A stretch of 64,000 bases of DNA from contig NZ_CP133038.1 of assembly GCF_033060595.1 (NCBI RefSeq), positions 992,001 to 1,056,000 on the forward strand. Reading direction: 5' to 3'. The notes beneath the pieces are model-generated. The model did not search any database. It was not told the origin of the DNA and worked only from the letters and a program-made list of their open reading frames with translations. This document shows, one piece after another, positions 19,788 through 40,831 of the stretch (the stretch's first letter is position 1; the number at the start of each line of letters is the position of its first letter). The position numbers and the translations under genes were made by a program. This stretch comes from Pyramidobacter sp. YE332 (GTDB lineage: Bacteria > Synergistota > Synergistia > Synergistales > Dethiosulfovibrionaceae).

Positions 19788-19978
19788 ACGCGGGGACGGG
19801 CTTATACTATTTCTTGATAAAAAGCGTTAACATAGTTTGCAGGGCGCTGCGAGGGAGTTCAGTCGCTCAGAACTCTCTCGACCGCTGCGCAGTCTGCGCA
19901 GCTCGCTTTGTGAATCTCCCCCGCAGCGCCCTTATGTTCGGCCTTTTAGGGCTTGTTTAAAAAACATTTCAGCTTGTA

Positions 19979-32010: not shown

Positions 32011-32110
32011 CAGGAAACCCCCTTGTGTCGTTTGAGTTTTCTCATTTTATCACGGCGTCCGTGGAAAAACGAGGACGCCGGATCGCTGAGCCGTTGTTCG
32101 GCGAATGCGG

Positions 32111-32134
32111 CAAATTAAGTTTTGACTTAATTTG
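32111..32134 (+). promoter_or_regulatory. ArsR-type operator 1, overlapping the -35
   Basis: Inverted repeat CAAATTAAG-TTTTGA-CTTAATTTG, perfect 9-bp arms. The -35 TTGACT (32122-32127) lies within it; 17 bases on is the -10 TATCAT (32145-32150). Repressor binding here would block RNA polymerase. Confidence 0.72.
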
Positions 32135-32161
32135 TTTGAGGTAGTATCATCTAACCGTTCG

Positions 32162-32185
32162 CAAATTAAGCTTGTACTTAATTAC
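32162..32185 (+). promoter_or_regulatory. ArsR-type operator 2, just after the transcription start
   Basis: Second copy, CAAATTAAG-CTTGTA-CTTAATTAC, 51 bases downstream of operator 1 and about 5 bases after the inferred start. The two sites bracket the promoter and end 20 bases before the ArsR gene, a classic autoregulation layout. Confidence 0.7.
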
Positions 32186-32204
32186 AGGACGGGGGAGGAA
32201 TGGC

Positions 32205-32939
32205 ATGGATATCGCTGAATATCTCAAGGCGCTTGGAGAACCTACGCGGTTTCAGATTTTCAGACTGTTGTTGAACCGCAGGCACTGTACGCGCTCGCTC
32301 TCGAGAAGAATGGGGATCAGCGAGCCCGCGGTGTCTCAGCATCTGCGCGTATTGAGGGAAGCTGGTCTGGTTTATCGTGAGCAGTACGGCGCTCACAAAC
32401 ATTATCTTCCCAGTCAGGACGCCGTTGATTTTCTTGCCGCTTCGTTTGAAGAAATGAGACGGGCGTCCATGCTTCTGGATCGCGATGAGAAGGAATGTCA
32501 GTGCGAATTTCGGAAGCAGTTCGAAAATCAGGCGCTTCCTGTTGCGCAGGACATCGTTCCCAAAGAAATCCCGGCTGTGAGGATCGCCGTTCCGTGCGCC
32601 AGGGGAGAGATTTTTCAAAAGTTTGGACTCGCGGAAACGTTCAAACTCTATGACACGGCGGGGGAGAAAGTGACGCGCAGCCAGATCGTGGACACGGAGG
32701 GATACCGTCGCGCCGCTCTGGCGGCGTTTCTGAAGCAATGCCAAGTCGATGCGGTGATCTGCGGAGACATCGGCGAAGGCGCTCGAAACGCGCTTGTGGA
32801 AAGGGGGATCCGCTTCTGCGCGGGCTGTGCGGGGGCCGCGGATCAGGCGGTGCGGAGTCTGCTCAACGGCTTACTGACATATGACGAGCATCCGCCGCGC
32901 TCCTCGCGGGAACACGGTGACAAAGGCGCCGGGAATTGA
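32205..32939 (+). CDS. ArsR-family repressor fused to a NifX/NafY-type cofactor-binding domain
   Basis: 244 aa. Residues 1-90 are an ArsR winged helix (EYLKALGEPTRFQIFRLLL, ISEPAVSQHLRVLREAGLV). Residues about 125-230 are a dinitrogenase iron-molybdenum cofactor (NifX/NafY/MTH1175) domain: VRIAVPCARGEIFQKFGLAE, AVICGDIGEGARNALVERGI, the final helix SLLNGLLTY. In that family the domain binds FeMo-co precursors or other metal clusters, so I infer that the repressor senses a metal cluster or metal-loaded cofactor. Possible ligands include the linker DEKECQCEF and CAGCAG. The ATG has GGGGGAGG 6 bases upstream. It is the first gene of the metal locus and probably controls it through the two operators upstream. 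Confidence 0.85.
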   Translation: MDIAEYLKALGEPTRFQIFRLLLNRRHCTRSLSRRMGISEPAVSQHLRVLREAGLVYREQYGAHKHYLPSQDAVDFLAASFEEMRRASMLLDRDEKECQCEFRKQFENQALPVAQDIVPKEIPAVRIAVPCARGEIFQKFGLAETFKLYDTAGEKVTRSQIVDTEGYRRAALAAFLKQCQVDAVICGDIGEGARNALVERGIRFCAGCAGAADQAVRSLLNGLLTYDEHPPRSSREHGDKGAGN

Positions 32940-33123
32940 CGCGATTGGAAAGAATCGCTACGTTCCGGAGAGTCATGCTGCGCCCATTCCGAATTGATCG
33001 ATTTCGTTGGAGCGCCCGCGTATATTGAAACACTCGGTTAGCTCCTTCTAATTGTTTTCGTGCCTGCGGCTCGAAAAGCGTGAAACGGTGACCGACATCA
33101 AACGAACGAAGGAGACTTATGCT

Positions 33124-33696
33124 ATGCGTATCTTTGCCGCGCTGTTCTGGACTTTCGCCAAGGTGGGGCTTTTTACCTTCGGAGGAGGCTACGCCATGCT
33201 GGCGCTGATCGAAGACGCTTGCGTCGGCAAGCGTGGGTGGATCAGCCACGACGAGATGATGGACATGACCGTCGTCGCCGAATCTACTCCCGGCCCTATC
33301 GCCATCAACTGCGCGACCTACGCGGGCTGGCGGCAGGCAGGAGTCATGGGCGCGGTCGCAGCCACCGTGGGGATGGTCCTGCCGTCTTTTCTCGTCATTT
33401 TCTTTCTGGCCGGTTTTCTTAAAAACTGGCTGGAGATCCCGTGGGTACCCCACGCCTTTCAAGGTATTCGGATCGCGGTCGCGCTCCTGATCCTGGACGC
33501 GGGGGTCGCAATGCTGAAAAGGACGCCGAAAAAAACGCTGCCGCTCGGCGTTATGGCGGCGTCTTTTATGATCCCGCTGACGGGCGCGCTGGCGGGCGTT
33601 CACGTTTCGTCCGTTGTGTTGATGGTCGCGTCCGGCATATTCAGCTTGGCGTATTTCGGCGTGACTCGATATCGAAAGAAAGGCGGGGAAAAATGA
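33124..33696 (+). CDS. Chromate-type (CHR) transporter, first half
   Basis: 190 aa, single CHR domain with about five to six membrane segments. Family motifs FAKVGLFTFGGGYAML, WISHDEMMD and ESTPGPIAINCATYAG are clear. Short CHR proteins work as pairs, and a second copy follows with a 4-base overlap (ATGA). Family members export chromate in some bacteria, but many short-chain pairs in anaerobes have no proven substrate; here an oxyanion (molybdate- or sulfate-like) is a guess from the cofactor-related context. AAGGAG is upstream of the ATG. It is 184 bases behind the ArsR/NifX gene without an evident terminator. Confidence 0.87.
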   Translation: MRIFAALFWTFAKVGLFTFGGGYAMLALIEDACVGKRGWISHDEMMDMTVVAESTPGPIAINCATYAGWRQAGVMGAVAATVGMVLPSFLVIFFLAGFLKNWLEIPWVPHAFQGIRIAVALLILDAGVAMLKRTPKKTLPLGVMAASFMIPLTGALAGVHVSSVVLMVASGIFSLAYFGVTRYRKKGGEK

Positions 33697-34247
33697 TCCT
33701 GCTGGAGTTGTTTCTCGGTTTTCTCCGGGTCGGCTGCTTTGCCTTTGGCGGAGCTTACGGGGCGATTCCGCTGATTCGGGACGTGGCGCTCTCGTACGGT
33801 TGGCTGACGGAAGAGGCGCTGATGGATATGATCGCCGTCAGCGAAAGTACGCCGGGTCCGATCATGGTGAACCTTGCCACGTATGTCGGCGGTTCTCGGG
33901 CGGGTTTTGCGGGCGCGCTGCTGGCTACGCTGGCGGTGGTCTTGCCGTCGTTTCTGGTGGTCCTGCTTGTGGCCGCGGCGCTGCGCGGGGCGGTCAAAAA
34001 CCCGTATGTACAGTTTGCGGTCAGGGGCCTGAAACCCTGCGTGGTCGGGATGGTCCTCGCGACCGGCAGCGTGCTGGCCGTGAATCAGTGCCGCGGAAAG
34101 CCGGCGGCGGAGGCCGGAAAAACGGCGCTGCTGTTTGCGGTCATGGGCGTGCTGATAATCGGTTATCGTGGCGTTCGAAAGAAGAAGCTGCCGCCGGTTA
34201 TGCTGATCCTCGCGTCCGCTGTACTGGGGATCTTTGTTTGGTCGTGA
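33693..34247 (+). CDS. Chromate-type (CHR) transporter, second half
   Basis: 184 aa, single CHR domain: FLRVGCFAFGGAYGAIPLI, WLTEEALMDM, VSESTPGPIMVNLATYVGG, followed by several hydrophobic helices. It is antiparallel partner to the preceding protein in short-chain pairs. The start codon overlaps the preceding stop, and the next gene begins 35 bases later, so it is embedded in the operon. Confidence 0.87.
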   Translation: MILLELFLGFLRVGCFAFGGAYGAIPLIRDVALSYGWLTEEALMDMIAVSESTPGPIMVNLATYVGGSRAGFAGALLATLAVVLPSFLVVLLVAAALRGAVKNPYVQFAVRGLKPCVVGMVLATGSVLAVNQCRGKPAAEAGKTALLFAVMGVLIIGYRGVRKKKLPPVMLILASAVLGIFVWS

Positions 34248-34282
34248 TGCCGGAGCCATGGATATCAATTCGAGGAAATAAC

Positions 34283-35113
34283 ATGCTGAAAGCGCAGAAA
34301 CTCTGTTTTCGATATGGGCGCACCGAGGTGCTGAGCGACGTCGATTTTTCCGCTGGCAAGGGGCAGATCATTTCGTTGATCGGACCGAACGGCTCCGGAA
34401 AATCAACGCTTCTCAGATGTCTGTGCGGTTTGATGCCTGCTGCCGGAAATTCGGTTTTGCTCGATGGGCGCCCGATTCGCCGGATGAGCGGCAGGGAAAT
34501 CGCCAAGAAGATCGCTTTTTTACCGCAATTCCATGCAAACATGCAGGGCACGACCGTACGGGAACTGATCGCTATGGGCCGGGCTCCCTATCATCGATCC
34601 GGCTGGCTCGAAAATGCCGAAGACAGGGAAAAGATACGCTGGGCTTCTTCGTATATGAATGTGGAGCGATATTTGGACCGGTATGTGGAAAACCTGTCGG
34701 GCGGTGAGAAACAACGCGTCTGGATCGCCATGATCCTTGCGCAGGATACGCCCGTCGTCCTTCTCGATGAACCGGTCACCTATATGGATCTGAGGCATCA
34801 GTACGATCTGCTTCAGGTCATCCTGAGCCTGAAGCGGCATTTCCACAAGACGGTCGTTTCCGTATTTCATGACATCAATCACGCGATCGAAGTGTCGGAT
34901 CGCGTGTATGCGCTGAAAAACGGAAGAGTGTTTCGGTCCGGTCCATGCGAACAGGTCGTTACGGAAGAAACGATCCGCGAGGTGTTCCAGATCAGGGCGC
35001 ATGTCTGCCGGTTTGAAAAATGCTGCCGCAACGTGGTGATCCCCACGCGGGAAACGTGTGCGTGCCGGCGCTCGTGCGCCGAGATGAAAAAACGAGAGGA
35101 GCGACGCCGTTGA
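34283..35113 (+). CDS. FecE-type ABC importer ATPase with a cysteine-rich tail
   Basis: 276 aa. ATP-binding subunit of an iron-siderophore/heme/cobalamin-type importer: Walker A GPNGSGKST, Q-loop FLPQFHANM, signature LSGGEKQRVWIAM, Walker B VVLLDEP, H-loop VFHDINH. The last 35 residues add six cysteines (VCRFEKCCRN, ETCACRRSC), absent from ordinary FecE proteins and possibly a metal-binding regulatory tail. The permease and lipoprotein-type binding protein lie 2.4-3.5 kb downstream in the same operon. The stop overlaps the TTG start of the next gene. Confidence 0.85.
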   Translation: MLKAQKLCFRYGRTEVLSDVDFSAGKGQIISLIGPNGSGKSTLLRCLCGLMPAAGNSVLLDGRPIRRMSGREIAKKIAFLPQFHANMQGTTVRELIAMGRAPYHRSGWLENAEDREKIRWASSYMNVERYLDRYVENLSGGEKQRVWIAMILAQDTPVVLLDEPVTYMDLRHQYDLLQVILSLKRHFHKTVVSVFHDINHAIEVSDRVYALKNGRVFRSGPCEQVVTEETIREVFQIRAHVCRFEKCCRNVVIPTRETCACRRSCAEMKKREERRR

Positions 35114-36024
35114 AACGATTGATGGTACATATCCCCGTCAACATGCGGGGGTATCTGTCCGACAGGCTGGGAGAAGCGCTGGGCAAATTCCGAGCGGAGA
35201 CGGGCGAGGATGTGCTGCTTTGCACGCCTCATGATCCCGAGTATACCGGCGATTGCACGGAGGAATGGCTGCTGCCCGCCGTTCGGAAGGGTATCCTGCC
35301 CGATCTGACGGTTGTAAACGCGACGGAACTCGCGCCGCTGGATAAAACGGTGAAGGAAGCCGTTTTGGGACGGGATGCTCCGCTGTTTGTAGAAAAGCAT
35401 CCTGTGCGAAAAGAAATGCAAGCGCTGCTGGATCCGGAGGGTTATTTCTATCCCATTTCCGTAACGCCGCTGGTCATGATCTACAATCCGGGGAAAATAG
35501 CGGCGGAGAAGCTGACGCATTCCTGGAAAGATCTGTTCAACCCCGATTTCCGCGTCGTTTTTCCGGACCGAGATAAGCCGCTGACGCGGGCGGCGGGGGC
35601 GTATCTTCTCTCCGTATGGCCGGACGAGTTCGCCGCCTTTGAGCGTCGCGTCGTTTATGACGGGCCCCCTGCCAGCGTCGTGCGTTCCGTCATGTCCGGG
35701 GAGTATGACGTCGCCATGACCAACGTCGGATTCGCCTCTGTGGGGACGGGCGACCGGCTTGCCGTCAATGCGGCGAAAGAAGGCGCCGTCCTGCTGCCGC
35801 AGATGCTTGTCTGGAAAAAGAATACGGGCGCCGCCTTGCTTCCCTTTGCCGAATTCATGGCGGGGCGCGCCATGCAAAGTTATTTCAGCGGGCAGGGCTC
35901 GTGGCCTGTTCATGCGGAGGTCGCGGCTCCGTGCGATCTGAGTCGTGAAAAACAGCTTCGGGAATGGCGCGGCTGGACGGCATATTTCAATTCTGTTCTG
36001 GCGTTTGACAATTATCGGGCTTGA
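35110..36024 (+). CDS. Periplasmic-binding-protein-like protein without a signal peptide
   Basis: 304 aa with the fold signature of iron(III)/spermidine-type (SBP_bac_6/8) binding proteins: YPISVTPLVMIYNPGKI, HSWKDLFNPDFRVVFPD, VVRSVMSGEYDVAMTNVGFA, FAEFMAGRAMQSYFSGQGSW. It lacks any export signal, so it should stay in the cytosol. I chose the TTG start because GAGGAG lies 8 bases before it and it overlaps the preceding stop; the ATG four codons on has no ribosome site. A cytosolic ligand-binding or metal-handling role is inferred. Homologues occur beside Fec-type transporters in anaerobes, but the function is not known to me. Confidence 0.7.
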   Translation: MKRLMVHIPVNMRGYLSDRLGEALGKFRAETGEDVLLCTPHDPEYTGDCTEEWLLPAVRKGILPDLTVVNATELAPLDKTVKEAVLGRDAPLFVEKHPVRKEMQALLDPEGYFYPISVTPLVMIYNPGKIAAEKLTHSWKDLFNPDFRVVFPDRDKPLTRAAGAYLLSVWPDEFAAFERRVVYDGPPASVVRSVMSGEYDVAMTNVGFASVGTGDRLAVNAAKEGAVLLPQMLVWKKNTGAALLPFAEFMAGRAMQSYFSGQGSWPVHAEVAAPCDLSREKQLREWRGWTAYFNSVLAFDNYRA

Positions 36025-36037
36025 AGGGACGGGAAAA

Positions 36038-36643
36038 ATGTTAAGAACGGACGACAATTATCAGATCCTGCAGCCCATGTATCCATTGCTGATCCAGCAG
36101 TTTGTGGACGATTACCGACTTCAAAACGGGATCGCCGTGGATATCGGCGTCGGACCTGGCTGGCTGGGGATGGAACTGGCCAAGATCACGGACATGCGCA
36201 TCGTCTTCCTGGATATCAGCCGGGATTCTCTCGACCTGGCCAAAAAGAACTATGAAGCGTTGCCGGTGGACAACGAAGTCTCCTTCGTCCAGGCGGATGT
36301 CTGCGAAATGCCCTTGGAAGACGACAGCGTCGATTTCGTGATGAGCCGCGGTTCCATCTGGTTCTGGGAGCGTCCTGAGGAGGGATTGCGGGCTGTCCAT
36401 CGGATCCTCAAGCCCGGCTGTTTCGCCGTCGTCGGCGGCGGATTGGGCCGCTATATCCCGCCAAGCATGCGCGAACGCATGCAGAAGGCGGTGCAGGCAG
36501 GCTTGAAAAGGAGAAATGAGAAGCGTCCCTCGCTGGTGGAACTCGCCGCCCTGGTCGAACGCGCGGGACTGACGGGATGCAGGGTCGTCTCGGACGGCGA
36601 ACATGCCGGGGGACGATGGATCGAGATCGAAAAGAAAAAATAA
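36038..36643 (+). CDS. Class I SAM-dependent methyltransferase
   Basis: 201 aa, Methyltransf_11 type: motif I VDIGVGPGWLGMEL, acidic loop IVFLDISRDSL, VSFVQADVCEMPLEDDSVD, motif IV VMSRGSIWFWE, post-motif AVHRILKPGCFAVVGG. The substrate is unknown. Methyltransferases of this kind next to Fec-type importers are a recurring, uncharacterised pairing; modification of an imported chelate or a metallophore is a reasonable guess. It lies 13 bases after the cytosolic binding protein and 12 bases before the exported one. Confidence 0.85.
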   Translation: MLRTDDNYQILQPMYPLLIQQFVDDYRLQNGIAVDIGVGPGWLGMELAKITDMRIVFLDISRDSLDLAKKNYEALPVDNEVSFVQADVCEMPLEDDSVDFVMSRGSIWFWERPEEGLRAVHRILKPGCFAVVGGGLGRYIPPSMRERMQKAVQAGLKRRNEKRPSLVELAALVERAGLTGCRVVSDGEHAGGRWIEIEKKK

Positions 36644-36655
36644 CGGGAGGATATC

Positions 36656-37591
36656 ATGATGGAAAAATTGAAAGAACGCGTCGCCTTCATGGCGCTGGTT
36701 GCGATGACGCTGATCGCCTCGCAGGCGGCCGCGTTTGCCGCGGGAGCTTCTTTGGCGGTAAAGGACGACTTGGGACGGGAAGTGACGATCCCCGAAAATC
36801 CGCAGCGGGTCCTGGCGCTTACCTCCGCCGCCATGCAGGCGGTCGTCAATTCCGGCGCGATGCCTGTAGGCAAAGTCGAGGATTACAGGATTTCGGAAAA
36901 AGGCATGGCCCTGCCGTCCGTGGGCAGGGCCGACAGTATCAACATCGAAGCCGTTTATGCCTTGAAACCCGATCTGATCGTCGCCAGCAGCCGTTTTCAC
37001 GCTGCGTTGAAGGAAGAACTGATCCGGACCGGCGCGGTCGTCTTCTTCTTCGACCCGGATGCCGTCGGCGAGATCCCTCTGGTCGAGCTGACCGGATACG
37101 TCGGCCATCTGATCGGCCGCGACAAGGAAGCGAACGCCTATATGGACATGGTCTTTGACCGCGCGGCGGCGCTGAAAAAGAAAGTCGCCAACGGCGCCGG
37201 AGTCAAGACCGGCGTCGTCCTGCAGGCCGGAAGCGGCGTAAAGGCGGCGCAGAGCGCTTCCAGTTTCGGCAGCATGCTTACCCTGCTGGGGATCGAAAAC
37301 GTCGTTCCCGCCGATCTGCCCAACGCGAAGAAAGCGTCCTTCGTGACTTTTGACGTGGAGGCCGTTCTCGCGGCGGACCCGGACCTGGTCTTCATTGTGA
37401 CGAACAGTAAAGACCGAAAAGAGAACCAGAGGATTCTCCGGCAGTTCAAGGCGGACGTCAAGTGGCAGACCCTCGGCGCCGTGAAAAACGGCAGGGTGCT
37501 GATCCTTCCTTTCGCTGTCAATCCGAACCGCTCCGCCGCGGAAGTGATGCTCGAAAAAACGGCGGAAGCGATTCTGGAAAACGCGAAATAA
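36656..37591 (+). CDS. FecB/BtuF-type periplasmic binding protein
   Basis: 311 aa. A Sec signal peptide (cleavage near AFA-AGA) is followed by the two-lobed Peripla_BP_2 fold: VTIPENPQRVLALT, the inter-lobe helix, and SFVTFDVEAVLAADPDLVFIV. It delivers a metal chelate (siderophore, heme or corrinoid) to the permease encoded next. There is no lipobox, so it is free in the periplasm. CGGGAGG lies before the ATG. A 158-bp repeat and a hairpin separate it from the permease gene. Confidence 0.9.
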   Translation: MMEKLKERVAFMALVAMTLIASQAAAFAAGASLAVKDDLGREVTIPENPQRVLALTSAAMQAVVNSGAMPVGKVEDYRISEKGMALPSVGRADSINIEAVYALKPDLIVASSRFHAALKEELIRTGAVVFFFDPDAVGEIPLVELTGYVGHLIGRDKEANAYMDMVFDRAAALKKKVANGAGVKTGVVLQAGSGVKAAQSASSFGSMLTLLGIENVVPADLPNAKKASFVTFDVEAVLAADPDLVFIVTNSKDRKENQRILRQFKADVKWQTLGAVKNGRVLILPFAVNPNRSAAEVMLEKTAEAILENAK

Positions 37592-37602
37592 TGTTCTTTC
37601 TA

Positions 37603-37760
37603 TACTGTTTCTTGATAAAAAGAATCAACGTAGCTCGCCGGGCGCCGCGGGAGAGGTCAGTCGCGCGGAACTCTCTCGACCGTTGCGCGCTCTGCGTAAC
37701 TCGCTTTGTGGCTCTCTCTCGGAGCGCCGCAAGATTCGATCTTTCAATCAAGAAATAGTA
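37603..37760. repeat. 158-bp palindromic repeat, copy 2 (intact)
   Basis: Terminal inverted repeats TACTGTTTCTTGAT and TACTATTTCTTGAT (reversed), same length as the reconstructed copy 1. Internal hairpins are kept with paired changes: GCTGCGCA/TGCGCAGC in copy 1 is GTTGCGCG/TGCGTAAC here (C-G replaced by T-A). It lies between the binding-protein and permease genes of one operon. Confidence 0.8.
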
Positions 37761-37763
37761 TGA

Positions 37764-37802
37764 CTCCTGCCCGAATGGTTCTCCGCCAGGGCAGGAGATT
37801 TT
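37764..37802 (+). terminator. Terminator-like hairpin between binding protein and permease
   Basis: Stem CTCCTGCCC/GGGCAGGAG with a 16-base loop and ATTTTC after it. It may attenuate expression of the permease relative to the binding protein, or end the transcript so that the permease depends on another promoter. Confidence 0.5.
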
Positions 37803-37831
37803 CATCATCCGATTCTGGAGGTGCTCGTTAC

Positions 37832-38857
37832 ATGAAAAACGTGCTCAGACGGCCGATGACGGCGCGAGCGAAAACGGTGCTGATTTTCCTTTCCGCGCTG
37901 GCGCTGGGAGCCGTGACGCTGATCGGCCTGGTCTCGGGGACAATCCGGTTTTCGCTGGAAGAGGTCCTGGTTTGGATGTCGGGGCGCGCCGGGAACGACC
38001 TGGCTGTTCAAATTCTTGGAAACGTGAGAATGCCCCGGATCATCACAGGCATATTGGTCGGTATGAACCTTGGCGTCGCGGGCGTGCTGCTGCAGGGCGT
38101 TCTGCATAATCCCATGGCTTCTCCCAATATTATCGGCGTCAACGCCGGAGCGGGCTTGGCGGCCGTCGTCGTGATGACGGTTTTCCCCGGGCGGGTACCG
38201 ATGATCCCGGCCGCTTCCTTTTTGGGAGCTTTGCTGACGGCGACGCTTATCTGTTTTTTGTCTGCGGCTTTCGGAAAGAGCCGCACGGTCCATATCGTTC
38301 TCGCCGGCATCGCCGTTTCCAACCTGATGAGCGCGGTCGCTTCAGGACTGATGACGATCAACAGCGATACGTTGGACATCACTTATTCGTGGCTTCTCGG
38401 CAGTCTTTCCGGGAAGAGCTGGGCCGCGGTGCAGTCCATTTTGCCCTACAGCGTTGCGGCGCTAGCGCTTTCGGCGTTTATCAGTCCCAAGATCAACTTG
38501 CTGACGCTCGGGGAAGAAATGGCGGAAAGCGTAGGGCTCTCGGTAAAAGTCTGCCGGATGATCGCGCTGCTGTTCGCGGCGATACTTGCAGGAAGCGCGG
38601 TCAGCGTAGCGGGAACGATCGGCTTTATCGGCCTGATCGCGCCGCACGCCGCCAGGCTGCTCGTCGGAAACGATCACCGCTTCCTGGTGCCGTTGTCCGC
38701 GCTGTTCGGCGCGCTTCTGTTGGCGGCGTCGGATACGATCGCCCGCACCGTGTTTTTGCCCGTGGAACTGTCGGTCGGTATCATCACTTCCGTGTTGGGG
38801 GCCCCCTTCTTCCTGGTTTTGCTCTGCCGGAAGGGAAAAGCGGAGTCCGTCCGGTGA
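37832..38857 (+). CDS. FecCD-type ABC importer permease
   Basis: 341 aa with about ten membrane helices. Family motifs RMPRIITGILVGMNLGVAGV, LQGVLHNPMASPNIIGVNAG, the EAA-like coupling loop AGTIGFIGLIAPHAARLL and the C-terminal GAPFFLVLL are present. It forms the homodimeric membrane channel with the ATPase at 34.3 kb and the binding protein at 36.7 kb. GGAGG is 10 bases before the ATG. The stop is 20 bases before the GTPase gene. Confidence 0.92.
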   Translation: MKNVLRRPMTARAKTVLIFLSALALGAVTLIGLVSGTIRFSLEEVLVWMSGRAGNDLAVQILGNVRMPRIITGILVGMNLGVAGVLLQGVLHNPMASPNIIGVNAGAGLAAVVVMTVFPGRVPMIPAASFLGALLTATLICFLSAAFGKSRTVHIVLAGIAVSNLMSAVASGLMTINSDTLDITYSWLLGSLSGKSWAAVQSILPYSVAALALSAFISPKINLLTLGEEMAESVGLSVKVCRMIALLFAAILAGSAVSVAGTIGFIGLIAPHAARLLVGNDHRFLVPLSALFGALLLAASDTIARTVFLPVELSVGIITSVLGAPFFLVLLCRKGKAESVR

Positions 38858-38877
38858 ATGAAATGAGGAAAACGAAA

Positions 38878-39600
38878 ATGAGATTTGCAACGTTTTCGGG
38901 GCCTCCCTCGTCGGGAAAGACCTCGGTCATCCTGCGGACTGTCTCGGAAATGCGGAAAAAAAGCGCCAGGATATGCGTCTTGAATTTTGACTGCCTCGCC
39001 ACCGACGACGGCCGCCTGTATCGGGAGAACGGCGTCGACTGCGCCGTGGGACTTGCCGGAAGCCTGTGTCCGGATCATTACTTCGTCAGCAATATCGACG
39101 ACTGCTTCGATTGGGGGACGCGGAACGGGTACGATCTGATGGTCAGCGAAAGCGCGGGCCTGTGCAATCGCTGTTCGCCCCATATTCAGGGATGCCTTTC
39201 CATCTGCGTGATCGACAGTCTGATGGGCATCGGCGCGCCGAAAAAAATCGGCCCCATGCTGAAAATGGCGGACATCGTGGTGATCACCAAAGGCGACATC
39301 GTCTCGCAGGCGGAGCGGGAGATCTTTGCCTTAAAGGTTCGTCAGGCCAATCCGCGAGGGATCGTCATGCATATCAACGGCATCACGGGACAGGGCGCGT
39401 ACCGGCTGGCGGCGCTCTTGCAGCAGGCGGGAGAACCCGACACGCTTAAGGGCGCCAAGCTTCGGATCAGTATGCCCTCGGCGCTCTGTTCCTATTGTCT
39501 GGGCGAAACGCGGATCGGAAAGGAAAAACAAAAAGGGAACGTCCGGAGAATGGACCTGGATCAGGCGGTAACGCATCATGAGAAACACGAAGATACGTGA
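38878..39600 (+). CDS. G3E/UreG-HypB-like metallochaperone GTPase
   Basis: 240 aa SIMIBI P-loop GTPase: Walker A GPPSSGKTSV at the N-terminus, a switch-type ESAGLCNRCSPHIQGC with three cysteines, a TKGD specificity motif (VVITKGDIV) and later CSYC. The TKGD motif and position in a metal locus fit the G3E group (UreG, HypB, CobW), which couples GTP hydrolysis to metal insertion. The cysteine cluster could bind the metal. The start was placed at the ATG with GAGG 9 bases upstream; two earlier in-frame starts (38854, 38863) are possible. It overlaps the next gene by 23 bases. Confidence 0.82.
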   Translation: MRFATFSGPPSSGKTSVILRTVSEMRKKSARICVLNFDCLATDDGRLYRENGVDCAVGLAGSLCPDHYFVSNIDDCFDWGTRNGYDLMVSESAGLCNRCSPHIQGCLSICVIDSLMGIGAPKKIGPMLKMADIVVITKGDIVSQAEREIFALKVRQANPRGIVMHINGITGQGAYRLAALLQQAGEPDTLKGAKLRISMPSALCSYCLGETRIGKEKQKGNVRRMDLDQAVTHHEKHEDT

Positions 39601-40579
39601 GCTTTTCGCCCGCTTTCCCGGCTCGGAAGACTTCTTCGAAGTCAATAGTCTCCATCCGCGGGATGGAAATCTGACCGTAGCGCAGTATATCGAGTCTTTG
39701 GCTTATGCTTTTGTCACCGATATGGGGATCGATCATGAAGCGCTTCTGGAGAGATTCGATCTGTTTATGGAGCAGCTCGTTGATTTGCGCCGCGGCGTTT
39801 CCTTCGACGTGCGCGTCTTGACGATTCTCGGCGGGGAAGATAAGCATGGCGCTCCGGAAGTGGATGAGATCGAGATCCGCCAAGGGGAAGTCGTCTGCGT
39901 CGTGGGCCCTACGGGATCGGGAAAAAGCAGGCTGCTGGCGGATATCGAATGGATGGCCCAGGGAGATACGCCCACAAAGCGGAGGATCCTGATCAATGGA
40001 CGCGAGCCGCCTGAAGAGTGGCGTTTCTCGCTGGATAAGCGACTGGTGGCGCAGCTGTCCCAGAACATGAACTTTGTGATGGACATCACCGTCGTCGATT
40101 TTCTCAAGCTGCACGCCGCCAGCAGAAATCGTGAACGGGGAGATCGTCTGGCGGAAAAGGTCATTCAAAGGGCGAATGAACTGTCCGGCGAGCCGTTCGA
40201 TCCCGCCGCGCCTCTGACCGCGCTCAGCGGCGGTCAGTCCCGCGCGTTGATGGTGGCGGACATTGCGTATCTGAGCTTTTCGCCGATCGTGCTGATCGAT
40301 GAGATCGAAAACGCCGGCATAGATCGGGAGCGGGCTTTGGAATTGCTGATCCAAAATCAGAAGATCGTGCTGATCGTGACCCATGATCCGTTGCTTGCGC
40401 TGCGCAGCGATCGCCGGATGGTGATCCGCGACGGCGGGATATCCGGGATCATCGAGACGACGGCGGAAGAAAAGGCGTGCCTGAGCGAGCTGTACCGCAT
40501 GGACCGCGTTCTGATGAACTATCGCGAGCGTCTGAGAAATGGAAAAACGCTCGCAGCGAAAGAAGACTCCGAAGGATGA
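39578..40579 (+). CDS. Soluble ABC-type ATPase with N-terminal helical domain
   Basis: 333 aa. An N-terminal helical region of about 100 residues (IRELFARFPGSEDFFEV; resembles DUF1858-like domains) precedes one ABC ATPase domain: Walker A GPTGSGKSRLL, signature LSGGQSRALMVAD, Walker B IVLIDEIENAG, H-loop VTHDP. There are no membrane segments and it differs from the importer ATPase, so it probably powers a soluble step such as metal-centre assembly or enzyme activation. Overlap with the GTPase gene indicates a joint function. It is last in the metal operon; the next DNA is a truncated 158-bp repeat and a terminator. Confidence 0.78.
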   Translation: MRNTKIRELFARFPGSEDFFEVNSLHPRDGNLTVAQYIESLAYAFVTDMGIDHEALLERFDLFMEQLVDLRRGVSFDVRVLTILGGEDKHGAPEVDEIEIRQGEVVCVVGPTGSGKSRLLADIEWMAQGDTPTKRRILINGREPPEEWRFSLDKRLVAQLSQNMNFVMDITVVDFLKLHAASRNRERGDRLAEKVIQRANELSGEPFDPAAPLTALSGGQSRALMVADIAYLSFSPIVLIDEIENAGIDRERALELLIQNQKIVLIVTHDPLLALRSDRRMVIRDGGISGIIETTAEEKACLSELYRMDRVLMNYRERLRNGKTLAAKEDSEG

Positions 40580-40581
40580 TC

Positions 40582-40692
40582 GGCGCTGCGAGGGGGGCGG
40601 CCGCGCGGGACTATTCCCGACCGCCGCACGGCTTGTTTTGTGGATTTTCCTCGCAGCGCCCTTGAGTTCGGCCTTTTATTTAAGAAACGGTA
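40582..40692. repeat. 158-bp palindromic repeat, copy 3 (5' end missing)
   Basis: Starts within the long stem arm (GGCGCTGCG) and runs through CGCAGCGCCC, TTCGGCCTTTTA and the right end AAGAAACGGTA. It keeps hairpins (GGCGG/CCGCC, CGGGA/TCCCG) with sequence different from copies 1 and 2. Confidence 0.65.
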
Positions 40693-40729
40693 TTGGAACG
40701 AAAACGGTCGTTATTCGGGAAATCTCCCC

Positions 40730-40761
40730 GAGCGTTTACTTTCGTAGACGCTCGTTTTTTT
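40730..40761 (+). terminator. Terminator of the metal operon
   Basis: Stem GAGCGTTTAC/GTAGACGCTC (one mismatch) with a 4-base loop and seven T. The 356-base gap from 40580 to 40935 holds copy 3 of the repeat, this terminator and the pyr promoter. Confidence 0.88.
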
Positions 40762-40831
40762 ATGGGAGCGACGTCATGGTTTTCCCCGTTTCATGATGGC
40801 GCGAGCGGAAAAACGGCGTGATTTTTAATTG

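Follow-up and report, generated by a model that had tools for sequence, protein, structure and literature searches.

The regulatory gene described here encodes a fusion of an ArsR-type winged helix and a NifX-like domain, and is found in a stretch of 64,000 nucleotides from Pyramidobacter sp. YE332 (contig NZ_CP133038.1, positions 992,001 to 1,056,000), which is referred to below as the window. In the reading that we favor, with a probability of roughly 0.55, the protein is a thiolate-type ArsR repressor of its own gene and of the chrAB pair that follows, and its NifX domain has been re-tooled or disarmed. Here, dimers would bind TTAAG-N6-CTTAA dyads, one on the -35 box and another just beyond the transcription start, so that RNA polymerase would be kept off the promoter. 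An inducer, most probably acting at the ArsR thiolates (Cys28, Cys98/Cys100), would release the repressor from the DNA and thereby turn on the gene itself, the chrAB pair and perhaps, through read-through, the Fec/GTPase genes further downstream. The NifX half would belong to a type of sensor or carrier that has become fused to different DNA-binding domains several times; in this particular protein its cluster-binding residues are lost. We infer DNA binding, repression and transcription through chrAB, as well as thiolate sensing and the identity of the inducer, from the features collected in Table 1 and from comparison with relatives.

Table 1. Features of the fusion gene, its promoter region and the adjoining genes (window positions)
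Feature	Positions	Strand	Basis or remark
Insert absent from congeners, ~8.7 kb	32090..40800 (approximate ends)		low GC, flank comparison
Operator 1, AAATTAAG-N6-CTTAATTT	32112..32133	+	AAATTAAGTTTTGACTTAATTT, 0 mismatches; overlaps -35 box; core kept in relatives
-35 box TTGACT	32122..32127	+	inside operator 1
-10 box TATCAT	32145..32150	+	17-nt spacer from -35
Operator 2, AAATTAAG-N6-CTTAATTA	32163..32184	+	AAATTAAGCTTGTACTTAATTA, 1 mismatch; past predicted start, 5' of ribosome-binding site
ArsR-NifX fusion gene P0001, 244 aa	32205..32939	+	Pfam, NCBIfam, AlphaFold2 model, Foldseek
ArsR/SmtB winged-helix domain, residues 1-92, invariant Cys28	32205..32480	+	profiles, model, alignment
CxC (Cys98, Cys100), 3' of helix alpha-5	32496..32504	+	alignment
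NifX-like domain, residues 124-222, KFG replaces HFG	32574..32870	+	Pfam, model, alignment
chrN, chromate-transporter (CHR) family half	33124..33696	+	PF02417 1e-45, 156 bits
chrC, CHR family half, 4-nt overlap with chrN	33693..34247	+	PF02417 1e-42, 146 bits
FecE-like ATPase, SBP_bac_6 protein, methyltransferase, FecB, FecCD permease, HypB/CobW-like GTPase, atypical ABC ATPase	34283..40579	+	profiles

The first-pass annotation had described the protein as an ArsR-NifX fusion, and this assignment holds: HTH_5 (PF01022; residues 13-57, E 3e-14, 53.1 bits against a cut-off of 22) and Nitro_FeMo-Co (PF02579; residues 134-219, E 5.5e-14, 52.7 bits against 26.3) both exceed their Pfam cut-offs, and both folds are matched in the PDB. 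The first half also passes the NCBIfam profile for ArsR/SmtB metalloregulators (NF033788; 69.5 bits, cut-off 55), while the top NCBIfam match of the second half is the C-terminal domain of MrpORP, at a score under the cut-off of that family. An AlphaFold2 model calculated from 36 input sequences displays two domains (mean pLDDT 87) connected by a weakly predicted linker at about residues 91-120. Using Foldseek against the PDB, the ArsR half of the model was matched to the folds of NolR, CzrA and SmtB, and the NifX half to 2yx6, 1o13, the ORP structure 2wfb and NafY (1p90), with TM-scores of 0.85, 0.83, 0.77 and 0.67, respectively. The protein is like SmtB, CzrA, NolR and BigR in combining a winged helix with an inverted-repeat operator on its own promoter and a short regulon, but differs from ArsR/SmtB repressors in the extra NifX-like domain, in the alpha-3 motif, which is HCTRSL instead of ELCVCDL, and in the CxC found after alpha-5. 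Its second domain resembles the PF02579 domains of NifX, NafY, ORP and MrpORP (C-terminal) in both sequence profile and fold; unlike these, it is joined to a DNA-binding domain.

The two operators that had been proposed to surround a TTGACT-17-TATCAT promoter are also confirmed at the sequence level, in positions suited to autorepression and with a sequence that is conserved in relatives, including archaea. When up to three mismatches are tolerated, AAATTAAG-N6-CTTAATTT is matched twice, against 0.01 matches expected, and two copies occurred in none of 100 shuffles. The promoter is the best sigma-70-type match of the region (10 of 12 consensus positions); operator 2 begins about 6 nt beyond the predicted transcription start, and the ATG of the fusion gene lies five bases downstream of GGGGGAGGA. 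The operator centers are 51 bp, i.e., about five helical turns, apart, which suggests that two bound dimers could share one face of the DNA. A search with Rfam detected no riboswitch or other known RNA at 31.4-41.0 kb, including the 184-bp gap between the fusion gene and chrN, a distance that leaves room for a second promoter.

In congeners, chrAB is preceded by a plain ArsR that shares about 40-44% identity with the ArsR half of the window protein. Upstream of the ArsR gene, G001 and G003 carry TTAATTAAG-N6-CTTAATTAA, G002 a near-identical site, and the plain ArsR-chrAB paralog in the window's own genome a site with one change. In G004 there are two degenerate copies 40 bp apart, one on the TTGACT and the other 3' of the -10 box of a TTGACT..TACGAT promoter enclosed in this two-site layout. 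These operons share the operator core, the promoter plan and the directly downstream chrAB pair with the fusion locus, but have no NifX domain, and they are found in five genomes of the genus whereas the fusion is found in the insert of one strain. In the archaeal ArsR-NifX genes, TTTAAG-N6-CTTAAA or TTAAG-N6-CTTAA was seen in all seven examined (one with a mismatch), with a TATA-like box on one side and the gene start on the other, and in G189, G265 and G289 the sole perfect genomic match is at the ArsR-NifX promoter. Because the core is found before both the congeners' plain ArsR-chrAB genes and the archaeal ArsR-NifX genes, TTAAG-N6-CTTAA is very probably the operator of this ArsR subfamily. 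The operator is absent from the 300 nt 5' of the gene in L059, the closest fusion among the matches listed.

A search for the operator before other genes, as had been suggested in the first-pass annotation, added the promoter of the ArsR-chrAB paralog and no further good sites: at up to two mismatches, the window's genome contains three in total, the remaining two being those at the fusion promoter. The regulon therefore appears to be small, a wider one was rejected on the same count, and the inner genes of the Fec cluster and the NifDK-like locus are left without an operator link. The paralog and the fusion could cross-regulate each other. The archaeal ArsR-NifX genes L140 and L142-L147 are solitary and the operator is essentially confined to their own promoters, such that these proteins seem to control just themselves. 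The protein itself might alternatively be the effector, i.e., a chaperone or buffer for a cofactor or metal whose own level is set via the ArsR half, in keeping with the solitary archaeal gene that has the sole good genomic site at its own promoter; we regard this as improbable, because the window gene heads a transporter cluster and its protein has lost the chaperone-type ligands.

The cofactor-binding domain had been described as taking the place of simple thiolate ligands. The alignment does not support this view: Cys28 aligns with Cys61 of SmtB and is invariant in 12 aligned ArsRs, all of which have a further Cys after alpha-5. The window protein has Cys28 and the CxC, which is also found in L059, and lacks the full ELCVC metal motif. 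In its NifX domain the fold residues are kept and substitutions are found at conserved putative ligand positions. The HFG motif has become KFG by replacement of His139 with Lys (codon 32619-32621) and the GHG loop reads RRA, with Arg at position 169; each of these histidines is found in 35 of 35 aligned relatives, and L059 and the archaeal fusions keep them. Position 142 is Leu where most relatives have His, and the C-terminal CxHH is replaced by RSSR, while among the 35 relatives Cys232 is kept in all and His234 in 34. Two cysteines, Cys131 and Cys205, are new, the latter being present in two relatives as well.

The key ligand of FeMo-co in NafY is His121, which is part of a conserved His-Phe-Gly motif, and the H121L variant does not hold the cofactor in gels (PMC8496260). 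His35 of NifX holds NifB-co (PMC13128457), and a 3Fe-4S cluster is bound by the MrpORP domain, in which the motifs CxHFGHCE and CDH are conserved (PMC6345978). In having lost the HFG His, the window protein resembles NifY and NafX, both of which are without the cofactor His (PMC13128457). The earlier proposal that the NifX half holds an Fe-S or Mo/Fe cluster, which would control DNA binding, is weakened by the changes of His139 to Lys and His169 to Arg and by the missing CxHH tail, i.e., residues that nearly all relatives keep, as well as by the behavior of NafY H121L. We now consider it unlikely, even though the domain passes PF02579, has a fold like those of NafY and ORP, finds its best NCBIfam match in the 3Fe-4S binder MrpORP, and has counterparts in other fusions that retain both histidines, and even though a NifH/NifDK-like locus is present elsewhere in the window's genome. 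A NifX domain devoid of ligand-binding ability had been named as an outcome that would speak against that proposal, and the window copy goes part of the way toward it, since the HFG His, His169 and the CxHH are absent. Given these losses and the presence of Cys28 and the CxC, the signal is more probably received by the ArsR thiolates or a changed NifX pocket than by a NifX-bound cluster.

As to the second of these sites, Lys139, Arg168, Arg169, Cys131 and Cys205 might together form a positively charged or thiol-containing oxyanion site, with a ligand such as chromate, molybdate or thiomolybdate that would fit the downstream CHR transporter. The changes at conserved putative ligand positions in an intact fold, and output genes belonging to a family of oxyanion transporters, are compatible with such a pocket. 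It is nevertheless a doubtful explanation, considering that the histidines are retained in other NifX-regulated chrAB operons and that chrN and chrC score only 64-71 bits with the NCBIfam ChrA and ChrB equivalogs, for which the cut-off is 250. 

In 85,000 genomes, a scan with NifX-type motifs and an alignment query identified at least 80 NifX-type loci; a single-sequence scan of genome contigs had returned no matches, and the fusions were recovered by the alignment query instead. Among the matches listed, two are true ArsR-NifX fusions, L059 from rumen Clostridia and L060 from a Methanomethylophilaceae archaeon. The former is about 52% identical to the window fusion over its whole length and has an MBL-fold gene instead of chrAB downstream of it. 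A profile built from the three fusions (window, L059, L060) retrieved eight full-length ArsR-NifX proteins from 147 genomes of the archaeal order, counting that of G189, the genome of L060, but none other than that of G188 itself from 396 genomes of the Clostridia order of L059. Elsewhere in 188 genomes of the window's phylum no ArsR-NifX scored above threshold, and plasmids yielded just NifX or DUF134-NifX. The archaeal fusion genes have no adjacent chrAB. A NifX tree places the archaeal fusions together with the stand-alone NifX proteins of archaea (98/91) and away from the bacterial ones, which suggests that the ArsR-NifX fusion arose at least two separate times; the window domain is found on a long branch with no resolved placement, and the ArsR tree is poorly settled, so that no grouping was drawn from it. 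The linker of L140-L147 (residues ~90-130) is conserved and Cys-rich (PCDPDLEGC..RGRC..CPGC), possibly a metal site of its own.

Most other NifX fusions among the loci listed carry DUF134, which is an unrelated DNA-binding domain. Among the other loci listed that have a NifX domain, 78 in number, 11 lie next to a chrAB pair, all of them DUF134-NifX: by the motif filter, 11 of 45 DUF134-NifX loci as compared to 0 of 33 stand-alone NifX. Reclassification by eye shifts about seven loci to DUF134 and changes the numbers to ~11/52 and 0/26 (p ~0.008, a value that overstates independence because several of the eleven loci are closely related). A twelfth DUF134-NifX gene beside chrAB is found in G170, where two TGACATATGTCA palindromes 34 bp apart bracket a TTGACA-17-TAATAT promoter; the same pair is present at L072 and L111, spaced by 32-33 bp. 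The DUF134-NifX loci beside chrAB (G170, L062, L072, L111, L132 and others) have the sensor-type domain and the partner genes in common with the window, and in G170, L072 and L111 also the layout of two palindromes 5' of the start, at 32-34 bp. They differ in the DNA-binding domain, the operator (TGACATATGTCA) and the retained histidines, so that layout and partner genes are shared although both the DNA-binding domain and its operator are others.

A broader reading, which we put forward tentatively, is that NifX domains act as a portable sensor module serving CHR-type (chrAB) transporters and related genes, and that they became fused independently to DUF134 and, on at least two occasions (in bacteria and in Methanomassiliicoccales archaea), to ArsR, with an ArsR operator common to two domains of life and a window copy that has exchanged a cluster-type ligand for a new one. 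If this is correct, the short-chain "chromate" transporters of gut anaerobes would serve a metal-sulfur or molybdenum-type signal, not chromate. The case shows one sensor-type domain combined with two unrelated DNA-binding scaffolds, the DUF134 version being found beside the same transporter pair, and it offers a route to the true substrate of the short-chain CHR transporters of anaerobes. A literature search returned nothing on ArsR-NifX, nor on DUF134 in connection with chromate, and the operator defined above is a testable one for a regulator family for which no description was found. The natural loss of the HFG His in one member provides a ready comparison for the role of this residue in the sensor.

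The fusion and the transporter block are taken as a recently gained island. The flanks of the block are only 15 bp apart in G002; in G003, which belongs to the same species, they match two contig ends and the fusion has no match. Genes of the block have a GC content of 0.55-0.61, as compared to 0.66-0.71 in the nearby helicase and pyrimidine genes, and 0.57 was found for the glyoxalase-like gene that adjoins the island. In the chrAB tree, the window pair joins the ArsR-linked pair of G004 with moderate support (86/84). The Fec-GTPase-ABC cluster is found without chrAB in two genomes (G113 and G117) of another genus of the family. This uncharacterized Fec/SBP/methyltransferase/GTPase/ABC cluster (window, L050, L051) has the appearance of metal or cofactor handling. 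A nitrogenase-like locus elsewhere in the window's genome, L203 (G000:C1:282000-301500), groups one NifH-like gene with two NifDK-like ones and with genes for Fec-type transport. The loci suggest that the bacterium is an anaerobe of the gut type. A palindromic repeat of 164 bp with a long terminal hairpin is located between fecB and fecD (37602-37765), with a second copy at 19804-19930; it is MITE- or REP-like and has dozens of matches in G001, G002 and G003, but hardly any in G004 and G005. Another dispersed repeat family, about 114 bp long and likewise matched many times in congeners, is represented at the right edge of the island (40582-40695).
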